Source of the DNA: a virus
Length of the DNA stretch: 64,000 nt
Virus record (IMG/VR): IMGVR_UViG_3300046820_000975
Coordinates: 1-64,000 of that record
Strand: one strand, 5' to 3'
The first letter of the stretch is position 1. Each line of letters starts with the position of its first letter. The position numbers were made by a program, and so were the translations under genes. Below are positions 38,093-44,622 of the stretch, piece by piece. The notes beneath the pieces were generated by a model. That model had not been told where the DNA came from and did not search any database. It saw only the letters and a list, made by a program, of their open reading frames with translations.

Positions 38093-38347
38093 AAGGTGTA
38101 AATTTAGATTAGATTGGTTGGGTGTTTGGAATGGGGTTGTGAATGGGGGTAGTGGGTGGGATGGTAGTGGGTTTGTGTACATGGTTTTGATTTGGTCTTG
38201 ATTCCTTGCGGGGTACAGTTCTGATTATCCATGAGAGTTTGACTGGGTACACTATTGCTGTAACCCTTTCTGAGTATTTGGGGTGGTTGGAATGGGATAG
38301 TGAATTGGTGTACCCTGTTTTGTGGACAGGGTTGTGGACAAGGTGTA

Positions 38348-38371
38348 GAGCGTAGCATTTCTACTACGCTC
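38348..38371 (-). terminator. Hairpin between tandem paralogues
   Basis: GAGCGTAG and CTACGCTC form a perfect 8-bp stem with an 8-base loop just after the leftward gene ending at 38383. The ~290 bases 38093-38382 around it hold no convincing gene. They are strongly G/T-rich on the + strand and contain the leader element at 38120. Confidence 0.6.
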
Positions 38372-38382
38372 ACTGTCCTTGT

Positions 38383-38877
38383 TTAGGAAGGCAAGTTAGC
38401 ACCGCCTGCACGTACTGCTGTACGCCATTGGGCAATCTCTTCCTGGTTGTCGTGTTCTACACGCACGTCTTGCATAACGTTATCAGGGTCGTAATCTGTG
38501 AAACGCAAGATTCTGTCTCCTTCTTTACGCAAGTAAGGAGCATCATCTTGTGGACGTTTCAAGAATGGTTGTACTGCTACTTCATAGTCAACGTCTGAAC
38601 GTAGACGTGACTTAAAAGATTCAGGACATTCACTCTCTGTGAACTCTCTAACAACTATCTGTCCTGGTACAGGACTGTTAGCATAAGTGTTGACAAACAT
38701 TTGAAGAATGTCTTTCTTAGCACGCAAGATAGTGGTGCGTGTCTGCTTGTCAATGAACCCGCCTGCTCTGTGTACAATCTTATCAGATTGCATAACGCAG
38801 TATGCGAATTCAGGGTTAGACGCGTAGTAACGAACTTTGTTACCTGTCTTTGGGTCTGTAATGATAGTTACTGACAT
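38383..38877 (-). CDS. Hypothetical protein, tandem paralogue B
   Basis: 164 residues (MSVTIITDPKTGNKVRYYAS). Shared features with the gene at 37601: YASNPEFAY, PGQIVVREFTESECP, DRILRFTDYD, DVRVEHDNQEE and final ANLPS. More Cys and Arg than its partner. Preceded by the leader element at 38905-38914 and followed by its own hairpin, so it is probably monocistronic. Confidence 0.65.
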   Translation of the reverse strand: MSVTIITDPKTGNKVRYYASNPEFAYCVMQSDKIVHRAGGFIDKQTRTTILRAKKDILQMFVNTYANSPVPGQIVVREFTESECPESFKSRLRSDVDYEVAVQPFLKRPQDDAPYLRKEGDRILRFTDYDPDNVMQDVRVEHDNQEEIAQWRTAVRAGGANLPS

Positions 38878-38925
38878 AGTTATGGGGATTTAATTAGTGA
38901 CGTTGGGTGTTTGGGTGTAGTGGTG

Positions 38926-38955
38926 GGTAGGTAGAGTTTGTGTACCCTACCTACC
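38926..38955 (-). terminator. Hairpin after the gene at 38964
   Basis: GGTAGGTAG (38926-38934) pairs with CTACCTACC (38947-38955), 9 bp, immediately downstream of the leftward stop. Confidence 0.6.
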
Positions 38956-38963
38956 TTACTACC

Positions 38964-39377
38964 TTATAGTTTCGCAAACAAGTCTCTCATTTCTTGTGGA
39001 GTACTGTCTTTGAAGCGTCTGTTTGCTAATACAGCAAGTTTAAAAGACTGGCTTTGCAATTTGAATTTGAGACTGATAATCTCTGTTTCCAAACTTTTAA
39101 CCTTGTCTTTGTACTGTTGTTCTACAGTACCTGTGTATCTGTTAAGCATACGTTCATCAGGTGTGCTGTCAACAATACAATCGTACAAGTCTGTCACAAG
39201 TATTGTGTAGTTACTTGGTGTAAAATTGTCTACAGGGATTTGTAGATACTTGGACACAGCAATGCTTTCGTAAGAACAGAATACGCTTACTTTAACTTTG
39301 ATTCTGCGTACATAACCGTTTTCAGTTTCAAGTTGATAGTCTGAACAGGTTGCGAGGGGGATGCGTTGTTTTTGCAT
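38964..39377 (-). CDS. Hypothetical protein with C-terminal coiled coil
   Basis: 137 residues: a beta-rich N-terminal half (YVRRIKVKVSVFCSYESIAV) and a helical C-terminal half (QQYKDKVKSLETEIISLKFK) that should form a coiled coil. Own leader element (39404-39413) and own hairpin. Family unknown. Confidence 0.6.
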   Translation of the reverse strand: MQKQRIPLATCSDYQLETENGYVRRIKVKVSVFCSYESIAVSKYLQIPVDNFTPSNYTILVTDLYDCIVDSTPDERMLNRYTGTVEQQYKDKVKSLETEIISLKFKLQSQSFKLAVLANRRFKDSTPQEMRDLFAKL

Positions 39378-39435
39378 AGGTATGAGTTTTAGTTAGATAG
39401 ATAGGGTGTTTGGAAATGAAATGAGAATGTATACA

Positions 39436-39463
39436 ACAGCACTACCTATTAGAATAGTGCTGT
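39436..39463 (-). terminator. Hairpin after the gene at 39492
   Basis: ACAGCACTA and TAGTGCTGT form a perfect 9-bp stem with a 10-base loop, 12 bases beyond the parS-like palindrome. Confidence 0.55.
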
Positions 39464-39474
39464 ATTGTACACAA

Positions 39475-39490
39475 TGTTCCACGTGGAACA
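39475..39490. promoter_or_regulatory. parS-like 16-bp palindrome
   Basis: TGTTCCACGTGGAACA is a perfect palindrome that fits the bacterial centromere consensus TGTTNCACGTGNAACA bound by ParB/Noc proteins. It lies in the intergenic space right after the gene ending at 39492. Having no loop, it is a poor RNA hairpin and is more likely a protein-binding DNA site. No parB or parA is seen in this window. I noticed no second copy. Confidence 0.55.
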
Positions 39491-39491
39491 A

Positions 39492-40043
39492 TTAGTGGTT
39501 CTCAGGAACAGGTGGTAACTCAGATACCCAATTCAAATACTGACTGCCTTTAATCCATTCATTGTTTTCTTTTGCATTGCGTGTGTTAGACTCAATGTCT
39601 TTGAGTTTCTCACAAGTTGTAGTCATGTAAGACGGTACAAGTCTGTCTTCAAAGAAATCAGTTGGCGTTTCAGTTTCTGTTGCATAAGTATCGTCTGTGA
39701 AATACTTACGTGATGTCTTTACTGACATGTAACTGATGACAACCTTATTAGTAATAGGGTTGTAAGATTCAATGTTACCGTCAATCAAATGAGTTTCAAC
39801 GCGTTCATCTTTCTTACTACGATACATAGCAAATACAGTTTGATTGATAGGCATCTGGTTGATGCTTTCATCATTAATACAGAACAGCATATCAAGGAGC
39901 GTGTTTACTTGGTCATTGCTGAATTCTGAATTTAACGCTTCAATGATTACAGGCATGTTTCTTGCAAACAAAATTGAGTTGTTTGTAATAGCATTGTGAC
40001 CTGCCTTGATGATTAGTTCTTGTTGTTTTTTTGAGAGTTCCAT
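39492..40043 (-). CDS. Hypothetical protein
   Basis: 183 residues (MELSKKQQELIIKAGHNA). Mostly helical N-terminal half, then strands (NKVVISYMSVKTSRKYF) and an acidic helical end. Own leader element (40080-40089). Family unknown. Confidence 0.6.
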   Translation of the reverse strand: MELSKKQQELIIKAGHNAITNNSILFARNMPVIIEALNSEFSNDQVNTLLDMLFCINDESINQMPINQTVFAMYRSKKDERVETHLIDGNIESYNPITNKVVISYMSVKTSRKYFTDDTYATETETPTDFFEDRLVPSYMTTTCEKLKDIESNTRNAKENNEWIKGSQYLNWVSELPPVPENH

Positions 40044-40095
40044 GATTAGTGGGGTTTATAGTTAATAATTAGTTTAAAAGGGTGTTTGGGTTATT

Positions 40096-40129
40096 AAACC
40101 CCCTATATCATTTCTGGTATAGGGAGTTT
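40096..40129 (-). terminator. Hairpin overlapping the end of the gene at 40103
   Basis: AAACCCCCTATA and TATAGGGAGTTT form a 12-bp stem with one wobble and a 10-base loop, followed leftward by TTTAAT. Confidence 0.65.
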
Positions 40130-40351
40130 AACAAACATTTTCTTACCTGACGCGCTTACTTTAAACTTGCGAAAGGTGTTTACAAATACGCCAGTATTGT
40201 CTATGTGCGTAAATTGTTTCATAGCACGTAGATGGTTGATGGCACCTATTCTTGTAGGGAATGTTTTGGTGCTATCAATGGAGAAACTTATTTCTCCTAA
40301 CTCATTAAAGAACTGCGTAGTGTAGTTCAGTTGGAATAAAGTCTTTTGCAT
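40103..40351 (-). CDS. Small hypothetical protein (82 aa)
   Basis: 82 residues, MQKTLFQLNYTTQFFNELGE, beta-rich with a helix (RIGAINHLRAMKQFTH) and ending KLPIPEMI. Own leader element (40375-40384). Family unknown. Confidence 0.6.
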   Translation of the reverse strand: MQKTLFQLNYTTQFFNELGEISFSIDSTKTFPTRIGAINHLRAMKQFTHIDNTGVFVNTFRKFKVSASGKKMFVKLPIPEMI

Positions 40352-40384
40352 ATGGTTTATATTTAGTTATCAAAGGGTGTTTGG

Positions 40385-40880
40385 AAATGAATAGTCAATC
40401 GTTTTGATCACATGTGGCAGCAGGTGGTTTGGTACTGATGCGTGGTTTTGATATCGAGTTTTGATATCAGTGCACACGTTGAGTTAATCCATTCACTTCA
40501 CTGTTGGCTATGGTCTTACAACCAACAGTGATTTGAATTTCAAGCATTACTACAGCGCCTATCTGTAGTACAAGTTCCCAGCTGGACACTTATATCCCTT
40601 TCGGGGGACTGACCCTACACTGCTGTAAGGTGACTGTACTGTTGACTGCTCATCCTGACCAGGACTTCCTTGTAGTTTTTACATATTCACTCCCAACAGC
40701 GAGTAATATAACTCAACCTATAAAGGTTAAGAGAAGCAACAACACATCAAATGCTTATAATGTGTTATTGCTAAAAATAACTGTAACAGACACTTTCAGT
40801 CTGAAGCTCCCGCACTCTTTGTAGAGGTCTAGGGCGCATTTGCAATACCTTTACAGGATTACAGTTATGTTAGTTTATTT
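40385..40880 (-). ncRNA. Candidate large structured non-coding RNA (~0.5 kb)
   Basis: No credible gene lies between 40352 and 40942. The + strand frame of 64 codons at 40630 looks like noise. The stretch is full of strong inverted repeats. TCACTGTTGG/CCAACAGTGA (40498-40507 with 40522-40531) is a perfect 10-bp stem. TACTACAG/CTGTAGTA (40548-40570) has 8 bp and a 7-base loop. GCAACAACACAT/ATGTGTTATTGC (40736-40771) has 12 bp with one wobble. ATAACTGTAA/TTACAGTTAT (40777-40786 with 40859-40868) is a 10-bp long-range closing stem that directly abuts hairpin CAGAC/GTCTG (40787-40803). The CCAAACACCC leader element precedes it at 40881-40890, as it does the neighbouring genes, implying leftward transcription. 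TTTTGATATC is repeated at 40446 and 40459. The size class recalls phage-borne GOLLD/ROOL RNAs, but no match is claimed. Confidence 0.6.
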
Positions 40881-40900
40881 GGGTGTTTGGAAATGACTAG

Positions 40901-40931
40901 AAAAAAAGGTGAGCAGTTTATTCACGTGCTC
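40901..40931 (-). terminator. Intrinsic terminator after the gene at 40943
   Basis: GAGCA (40911-40915) pairs with TGCTC (40927-40931), followed leftward by seven T. The same TGAGCAGTTTA...TGCTCAGG pattern recurs at 41338-41362. Confidence 0.65.
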
Positions 40932-40942
40932 AGGTGTAGCAG

Positions 40943-41299
40943 TTAACATTCAGGAGATTGATTCTCCAATGCGTTGAGTTCACACTCATTTTTTAAATCT
41001 TCCATGTGACTGTACCAAGGAACATATGTTATAACATTGCGAGGAATATCAATGAATCCTGTACCTGCTACCATGTGGTGTACTCTTTGGTCATCAAGGT
41101 TAATAATGACATCTCCTACACATGTGCTTCTTTTATCAAGGAGAGCATACTCTTCTGAGAAATCATTTTGTGCTAACTTAAATGCGTCTTCCAGCGAGTT
41201 AGCTTCAAGAGAATGTATAAGGTCATACTTATATACACCGCTTTTCATCTCATGGTTTATTGCACCAGTTGATGGGTGAAAAATAAGAAATGTTTTCAT
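40943..41299 (-). CDS. Hypothetical protein
   Basis: 118 residues from the ATG at 41299 (MKTFLIFHPSTGAINHE). Upstream codons run into a repeated terminator. The sequence has helix LEANSLEDAFKLAQND and strands DVIINLDDQRVHHMV. The LEANSLEDAFKLAQ phrase is typical of short phage proteins, but the family is not identified. Confidence 0.6.
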   Translation of the reverse strand: MKTFLIFHPSTGAINHEMKSGVYKYDLIHSLEANSLEDAFKLAQNDFSEEYALLDKRSTCVGDVIINLDDQRVHHMVAGTGFIDIPRNVITYVPWYSHMEDLKNECELNALENQSPEC

Positions 41300-41333
41300 G
41301 TTACAATTGTTTTTGTTGGTTATTAAATGATTG

Positions 41334-41360
41334 AAAATGAGCAGTTTAGTGTCATGCTCA
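41334..41360 (-). terminator. Intrinsic terminator after the lipoprotein gene
   Basis: TGAGCA and TGCTCA form a 6-bp stem with an 11-base loop, followed leftward by TTTTC. It is a near copy of the terminator at 40901-40931. Confidence 0.6.
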
Positions 41361-41370
41361 GGACAGTTCT

Positions 41371-41493
41371 TTAGTGTATTGGACCACAAGTTTGGTGGTA
41401 TACACGCCATTGCTTACAGTTGTGCGACTCAGTAGCACAAGAAGCGAACAATACTATGCTTAAAAGCACGATGATGTAGAAAGAGAATTTCAT
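41371..41493 (-). CDS. Small lipoprotein (40 aa)
   Basis: 40 residues from the ATG at 41493: MKFSFYIIVLLSIVLFASC, a signal peptide with a lipobox (FASC), then a short Cys-containing mature part (ESHNCKQWRVYHQTC). Small phage lipoproteins often block receptors and exclude superinfecting phage. A variant leader element lies at 41524-41533. The assignment as lipoprotein is from the lipobox; function is inferred. Confidence 0.6.
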   Translation of the reverse strand: MKFSFYIIVLLSIVLFASCATESHNCKQWRVYHQTCGPIH

Positions 41494-41534
41494 GAGTGAA
41501 ATATTTATTTGGTTAGTTAATGAGGGTGTTGGGT

Positions 41535-41570
41535 GACCAAAGGCGTGCAATCTATACACGCCAAATGGTC
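41535..41570 (-). terminator. Hairpin between small membrane-protein genes
   Basis: GGCGTG (41542-41547) pairs with CACGCC (41557-41562), with an outer GACCA/TGGTC pair. Confidence 0.55.
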
Positions 41571-41580
41571 AAACCAAAAA

Positions 41581-41787
41581 TTACATGTCTTGTAGTTCAT
41601 TGCCTGTTACAACAGTTAGGAACAACCACAAGAAGAAACCTATTACCCATACAGGTGCACATGTAGTGACATCCATAAAGGTAGCAGGTGTTAACACTGA
41701 AATCATTGTAGCAATTACTACAATAAAAGCGAAAGTCATAATTGCAGGTAGGAACAATCCTATTACAATCTTCATTAAGTTTTTCAT
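41581..41787 (-). CDS. Small membrane protein (68 aa)
   Basis: 68 residues with two hydrophobic helices (about 8-32 and 46-62), MKIVIGLFLPAIMTFAFIVV and VWVIGFFLWLFLTVV. Own leader element (41815-41824). It may belong with the neighbouring lipoprotein and membrane protein in changing the host envelope. Confidence 0.6.
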   Translation of the reverse strand: MKNLMKIVIGLFLPAIMTFAFIVVIATMISVLTPATFMDVTTCAPVWVIGFFLWLFLTVVTGNELQDM

Positions 41788-41825
41788 ATCGTTATTGGTT
41801 TTGTTAGTTAATGAGGGTGTTTGGT

Positions 41826-41853
41826 AAAAGAGCAGGAGTGTTAGTCCTGCTCT
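41826..41853 (-). terminator. Intrinsic terminator after the gene at 41860
   Basis: AGAGCAGGA and TCCTGCTCT form a perfect 9-bp stem with a 7-base loop, followed leftward by TTTT. Confidence 0.75.
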
Positions 41854-41859
41854 AATACA

Positions 41860-42120
41860 TTAGAACTTGTCAACAATCTTGTTAACTTTCTCTTTTCTGC
41901 TATAAAACTTGTAGTCTCTTGTAGCAATCTGTGCTACAAAGATGAACTGCACGCCAATAGTAAATGTAATCAACAACACTGCTATAACAGCAAGGCCATA
42001 CTGTGGTTCATCACCAGAGATAGCGTCAGCAAACATTTTACAAGATGGGTTCATAGTCATAAAAGCAAGAACAGCAATAGCTAGTAATCTAACTACTACA
42101 AAAAGGAAATTGTTTTTCAT
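41860..42120 (-). CDS. Small membrane protein (86 aa)
   Basis: 86 residues with two transmembrane helices (about 4-22 and 42-64: FLFVVVRLLAIAVLAFM and LAVIAVLLITFTIGVQFIFV) and a basic C-terminal tail. Own leader element (42148-42157). Family unknown. Confidence 0.6.
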   Translation of the reverse strand: MKNNFLFVVVRLLAIAVLAFMTMNPSCKMFADAISGDEPQYGLAVIAVLLITFTIGVQFIFVAQIATRDYKFYSRKEKVNKIVDKF

Positions 42121-42157
42121 AATAAAGTTGGTTTAATTAGTTAGTAAGGGTGTTTGG

Positions 42158-43772: not shown

Positions 43773-44063
43773 ATGAGTTTACCATTTAAAGCACTTAAAG
43801 GTCGCAGGATCCTAGTAGAAAAACCTGTACGTCCAGAATCAACGATTGAATTAACAGAAGATGTTAAACAACGTATGGAAATTGAAATGATGCGTCAATG
43901 GACAAAGCTTGAAGTTTTTGCTATTGGTGAAGACGTTGAGTCAATTGCTGTTGGAGATAAAGTATATCTTCCTTCTGGAGCTTTACAATCAGCTGAAGTA
44001 GTTGATGTTGAAGGTCAATTAAAATTGATGGTTAGCGAATTTGATGTCGCTATCATCTGGTAA
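43773..44063 (+). CDS. GroES-like co-chaperonin
   Basis: 96 residues. ALKGRRILVEKPVRPESTIE at the start, a mobile-loop-sized insertion (LTEDVKQRMEIEMMRQW), then VFAIGEDVESIAVGDKVYLP and a final FDVAIIW. This follows the GroES/gp31 fold order of strands, including the VGDKV phrase of GroES. Phage co-chaperonins replace host GroES for capsid folding. It is encoded ahead of the terminase, portal and capsid genes. Confidence 0.65.
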   Translation: MSLPFKALKGRRILVEKPVRPESTIELTEDVKQRMEIEMMRQWTKLEVFAIGEDVESIAVGDKVYLPSGALQSAEVVDVEGQLKLMVSEFDVAIIW

Positions 44064-44070
44064 TACCAAA

Positions 44071-44139
44071 GCGGGATGGTGTAGTGGTAGCATGCAAGCC
44101 TCATAAGCTAGAGATCTAGGTTCAATTCCTAGTCCCGCA
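44071..44139 (+). tRNA. tRNA-Met (CAT anticodon)
   Basis: GCGGGAT opens the acceptor stem, which closes with GTCCCGC and discriminator A. The D-loop has GTGGTAG. The anticodon loop is CTCATAA (CAT) with one A-A mismatch in its stem. The T-arm is CTAGG-TTCAATT-CCTAG. CCA is not encoded. CAT could also be read as Ile after lysidine modification. Confidence 0.9.
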
Positions 44140-44147
44140 ACTAAAAA

Positions 44148-44214: not shown

Positions 44215-44622
44215 ATGAAAACCAACATGCAAGTAAATCGCATACAAAAAAAGGTAAGGTTGAACGCACATGATTTAGTTAAATACCAAATCATGACTGA
44301 AGTAGTCTTTTTTGGAAAGGAACATTTGATTCCTTCTGACATGGAGTTACTTACCTTACTTGCTTTATGGGGTCCAGTTGAACTAGTATCGTTCTGTGCA
44401 ACTGCAGCAAAGCACTTATATCCAGATATAAAACCTGAAGAGATTGCTGTACGTTCTCAGAATGTACGCAACAGAATTGTAAAGCTAGAAAAACGTGGTC
44501 TAGTAGAGAAAAGCAAGAAAGGTAAAAAGATGATTCAGCTTGCTGAAAAGATCACTCTTGCATCAAAAGGTAATGTATTGTTGGATTATAATTTCTTAGC
44601 TCTTGAAACCAGTAAAGCGTAA
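44215..44622 (+). CDS. Winged-helix protein (possible terminase small subunit or regulator)
   Basis: 135 residues from the ATG at 44215; upstream codons fall in the structured RNA. The central and C-terminal part (MELLTLLALWGPVELVSFCA, VRSQNVRNRIVKLEKRGLVE) is a winged helix with a Lys-rich wing. Proteins of this type near the terminase in Bacteroidota phages are often annotated as hypothetical. A small-terminase role is possible but unproven. Confidence 0.55.
   Translation: MKTNMQVNRIQKKVRLNAHDLVKYQIMTEVVFFGKEHLIPSDMELLTLLALWGPVELVSFCATAAKHLYPDIKPEEIAVRSQNVRNRIVKLEKRGLVEKSKKGKKMIQLAEKITLASKGNVLLDYNFLALETSKA

Follow-up and report, generated by a model that had tools for sequence, protein, structure and literature searches.

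The window, as we call the whole stretch of DNA analyzed here (64 kb out of a 112-kb virus record), comes from a crAss-like phage. Its terminase, portal, and major head protein fall in crAss-type PHROG families, and the terminase shows about 25% identity to crAss-like phages in INPHARED and up to 78-80% to environmental relatives in IMG/VR. Upstream of the rightward structural genes lies a leftward gene cluster, within which the stretch 40385-40880 is free of genes. This stretch, and the element that we describe in it, is part of an accessory island that close relatives do not have. The genes 38383-38877 and 41581-41787 are 2.7 kb apart in the window, and in five relatives (L003, L004, L005, L009, and L025) their homologues are joined directly, with 65-79 nt between them. 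The features of the locus, in the leftward direction, are:

38914-41559, minus strand: accessory island with the element, from the gene maps of these five relatives
40943-41299, minus strand: gene 5' of the element, 118 aa; modules of an RNA family, R1 (see below), adjoin its homologues in several other phages
40900-40931, minus strand: terminator-like element of that upstream gene, from sequence and predicted pairing; imperfect hairpin TGAGCA...TGCTCA, then TTTTTTT
40881-40890, minus strand: leader CCAAACACCC of the element, then AAATAAACTAAC; exact copy, probable promoter
40777-40868, minus strand: 5' domain, 92 nt; 10-bp closing helix ATAACTGTAA/TTACAGTTAT around small hairpins
40735-40772, minus strand: 15-bp hairpin AGCAATAACACATTA/TGATGTGTTGTTGCT, pairing probability 0.99
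40712-40731, minus strand: 8-bp hairpin CTTAACCT/AGGTTGAG, probability 0.96
40687-40706, minus strand: 6-bp hairpin TTACTC/GAGTGA, probability 0.85
40388-40652, minus strand: 3' domain, 265 nt; nested helices TGAG/TTCA, AGTCAA/TTGACT, GTCAC/GTGAT, and CAGCAG/CTGCTG, probabilities 0.93-0.98
40549-40569, minus strand: 7-bp hairpin ACTACAG/CTGTAGT, probability 0.96
40491-40538, minus strand: 14-bp hairpin TCACTGTTGGTTGT/ATAGCCAACAGTGA (40531-40498), extended by ATTCA/TGAAT, probability 0.99, z -9.1
40440-40477, minus strand: 7-bp hairpin TGATATC/GATATCA (40469-40449), extended by GTGTG/CACGC, probabilities 0.99 and 0.90
40375-40384, minus strand: leader CCAAACACCC of the next gene (40103-40351), marking the 3' limit of the element

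The initial annotation had described the stretch as lacking a credible ORF, and this is indeed the case: none fills the region 40352-40942, and the longest minus-strand open frame lying wholly within the stretch has 40 aa. Recoded frames, in which TAG or TGA is read through, were rejected as a gene, since nothing convincing runs leftward. The same annotation had placed the leader of the surrounding genes at the upstream end, where we find an exact copy (40890-40881). The 112-kb genome has 8 exact copies of CCAAACACCC, all on the minus strand and all within 38129-42157. Seven of them precede an ORF start by 23-36 nt, and the eighth opens the gene-free stretch. A few bases past CCAAACACCC, the motif ACTAA is kept or nearly kept, and the full pattern CCAAACACCC-N5-8-ACTAA is confined to the leftward cluster (38129-42157, minus strand). 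The relatives seem to have a variant leader, CTAAACCCCTTAACTAA, before the corresponding genes. Judging from its copies and their spacing, CCAAACACCC is a probable promoter.

The terminator-like hairpin 40900-40931 stands between the element and gene 40943-41299, with its T run just before the 40890 copy of the leader; it is not listed by a simple terminator scanner, which accepts loops of 3-8 only. At the other end, the 40384 leader comes directly after the last helix. From this anatomy, the element appears to be a transcription unit of its own. A scan of its 3' end revealed no clear U-tract terminator, so that transcription may continue into gene 40103-40351, which begins 37 nt past the last helix. 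Both points would suit a long structured UTR, where the leader at 40881 reads through the hairpins into this gene and the hairpins control or protect its mRNA. However, the gene has its own leader at 40384, at the usual spacing, and tandem leaders around a long spacer are seen in no other gene of the cluster, which makes a UTR unlikely in our view.

The predicted fold of the minus strand has a minimum free energy of -161.7 kcal/mol, against -122.0 kcal/mol in shuffled sequences (z -5.91, 0/100 shuffles), and the pairing probability of the main helices is mostly above 0.85. The strong inverted repeats reported initially are thereby borne out on this strand. The same applies to a closing stem said to span about 90 bases and to stack on a neighboring hairpin: the 10-bp helix closes 92 nt, and a 5-bp hairpin (CAGAC/GTCTG) lies directly against its 3' strand. 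The region 40652-40388 is closed by further, nested long-range helices (4+6+5+6 bp), which were not listed then. The pairing probabilities of the 5' domain are 0.86 and 0.97, and its z is -2.7 on the minus strand and -3.1 on the plus strand; for the 3' domain, the values of z are -5.7 and -4.8, respectively. The plus strand of the whole stretch also folds well (z -4.94, 0/100 shuffles). The middle hairpins are biased toward the minus strand, with -19.0 kcal/mol against -10.2 on the plus strand for 40735-40772, and -39.0 against -23.1 for 40660-40776. There is no such bias in the 3' domain, whose absolute energy slightly favors the plus strand (-86.4 kcal/mol minus, -93.0 plus).

Across the 64 kb, the median z of control windows of 480 nt is about -1.9 on the minus strand. 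By z, the stretch 40385-40880 ranks within the top five of some 200 such windows, i.e., in the top few per cent but not alone there, as a handful of others, some of them coding, reach z -6 to -7. Folding energy alone was therefore rejected as proof of an RNA. The fact that some coding windows fold as well, together with the frequency of strong intergenic hairpins in this phage, the good fold on both strands, and the location in an accessory island, is what could be expected if the stretch were a decayed gene or spacer DNA, whose leader had lost its ORF and whose hairpins were the debris of terminators or the scars of recombination in an island that changes fast. Yet, no ORF remnant is found at the expected distance past the 40890 leader, where the first ATG opens only three codons, and we saw no similarity to known genes in any frame of the stretch. 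Nor would debris be expected to show nested long-range helices and a strand bias in the middle hairpins. We thus hold decay to be rather unlikely.

We found no homologue of the element. Searches by DNA similarity in INPHARED gave only chance matches of 28-40 bases, and the 80 best TerL relatives, with the complete records of 49 of them, yielded short chance matches only, the best of which among the relatives (L075) falls within coding sequence. A nhmmer search against 1.5 Mb of relatives returned nothing. Two IMG/VR pattern scans, designed from two parts of the element, retrieved chance matches and a single contig, 100% identical where compared, which is the sole other copy. The genes 39492-40043 and 40943-41299, each used as sole protein bait, led to this identical contig only, and INPHARED contains no relative of gene 40103-40351. 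The syntenic gaps of L003, L005, L009, and L039 were considered as homologues and dropped, as by eye they contain a conserved small ORF. The gene maps of the relatives account for this outcome: homologues were not found because the element sits in the accessory island. Our literature search found no paper on structured RNAs of crAss-like phages. Elsewhere, a conserved non-coding stretch (L015:3239-3515) is flanked by the homologues of genes 43773-44063 and 44215-44622 of the window; it recurs in eight loci, and the window has a tRNA-Met at the same place.

The structured gaps of related phages yielded a conserved RNA family, which we named R1. The 19-mer CACGTGGATATAAAGACTT is found in 27 IMG/VR stretches, and an alignment of 14 members shows an almost invariant core (CACGTGGATATAAAGACTT ... 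GATGTRAAACCAC ... CCCAAGGGTGAGCAGTTGTAAT ... ACAACTGAGTGCAGAGG) and conserved helices that close three hypervariable arms. The six helices comprise 36 pairs, 98.4% of them paired, and include nine doubly changed pairs, compared with 1.5 in shuffles; the pairing is destroyed when the partners are slid. Rfam 15 has no such family. Full and minimal copies, several per genome, are detected by the R1 covariance model. By eye, R1 seems to be modular in its arms: an entire arm distinguishes two copies that are otherwise nearly identical, and a similar sequence serves as arm 1 in both L209 and L189 and as arm 3 in L192. The corresponding loci are:

L187-L213: R1
L033:387-642, minus strand: R1
L099:1531-1882: R1
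L103:2774-3048: R1
L056:2447-2581, minus strand: R1
L205:6339-6617: R1, arm modularity
L211:2976-3313: R1, arm modularity
L209:1876-2159: R1, arm modularity
L192:11626-11987: R1, arm modularity

One R1 copy in L200 is interrupted, by eye exactly in the conserved core, by a 177-aa ORF of putative GIY-YIG endonuclease type (L200:10485-11018, minus strand). The insertion point is between CCCAAGGGTGA and GCAGTTGTAA, and the end of the ORF recreates AAGGGTGA. Genes resembling tRNAs also occur near R1 modules (L103:4560-5350, L099:1381-1473, and L104:12423-12570); in L103 and L104 they resemble tRNA genes that contain long inserted or variable arms.

Homologues of gene 40943-41299 (L217:389-739, L218:4001-4336, and L219:4001-4291) lie within about 60-330 nt of R1 modules, and a partner protein of R1 is a possible role for them. 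Structured RNA would thus be usual in this niche, since the relatives have covarying RNAs both within this cluster and next to the homologues of the neighboring gene, which speaks for an RNA gene here as well. The element and R1 have in common the phage clade, the leftward gene cluster, and, in some cases, the neighbor gene 40943-41299, and short resemblances such as GGATGAGCAGT are present in both. One could then imagine an extremely diverged R1 member. However, the element differs from R1 in sequence and architecture, and it does not match in a PWM scan. With filters off, the R1 covariance model gives at best 4.6 bits in the element's stretch, nothing above noise, and the remainder of the genome has no match to it at E<=1, whereas R1 members score 30-225 bits. 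Membership was rejected on the scan and the model, the niche alone being in common, and we consider even a very distant kinship highly improbable.

In light of these data, we regard the element, with moderate confidence, as probably an orphan accessory RNA gene of the crAss-like phage, leftward and discrete, whose product would act in trans. The computed basis of this reading is the lack of a credible frame, the identity and spacing of the leader, the strong predicted fold, and the membership in the island. Under this model, a leftward RNA of about 0.5 kb, from roughly 40870 to 40388, would be transcribed from a leader copy of its own, starting just past the terminator-like hairpin of the preceding gene, and would accumulate as a discrete molecule. 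Through its two-domain fold, the RNA would act in trans during infection, for which a role as a stable scaffold or decoy is the most likely, and it may work alongside the accessory proteins of the island. The initial proposal of a new phage-borne RNA transcribed leftward stands in so far as the stretch is non-coding, has a leftward leader of its own and a strong predicted structure, and matches no Rfam family.

CrAss-like phages are among the commonest viruses of Bacteroidetes, and accessory islands are where genes dealing with the host tend to lie. If the element gives a discrete transcript, then crAss-like phages have an RNA gene in such an island. More tentatively, and with considerable doubt, the element could be the first representative seen of a new phage family of structured RNAs acting in trans, in a clade that carries interchangeable, unrelated large RNAs (the element and R1) beside the same small protein gene, maybe their partner. 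R1 is the stronger comparative case, being covarying, modular, with hypervariable arms, and absent from Rfam. These traits provide many natural variants for testing what such RNAs do. To our knowledge, few large phage RNAs have been described, and none has an established function.

Compared with known systems, the element matches no family of Rfam 15 at threshold (weak chance matches only, best E 2.2), which means that it is neither GOLLD nor ROOL, the two RNAs evoked initially. Their covariance models have no match at the gathering score in the window, and none at E<=10 in 40300-41000. For GCGCCC...GCGGGAG, a twister-like reading was dropped as well, with no Rfam match at E<=10. The capsid-related function raised for RNAs of the GOLLD and ROOL type finds no support here. 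Like GOLLD, the element is a large, structured, phage-borne RNA candidate, but it is about 480-500 nt long, its two leaders being about 500 nt apart, whereas members of GOLLD often exceed 800 nt (PMC12286853). A conserved 3' region is a further trait of GOLLD. With regard to the tRNA islands associated with GOLLD, a single tRNA-Met (44070-44141, plus strand) lies 3.2 kb off, and no such island adjoins the element. ROOL is a large phage-borne RNA without a known protein partner (PMC12286853), a description that would also fit the element, although the two have no sequence or structural model in common. ROOL is further characterized by its RNA-only multimeric cage. The element is probably of a known kind, the phage-borne structured RNAs, and a candidate for a new type among them.
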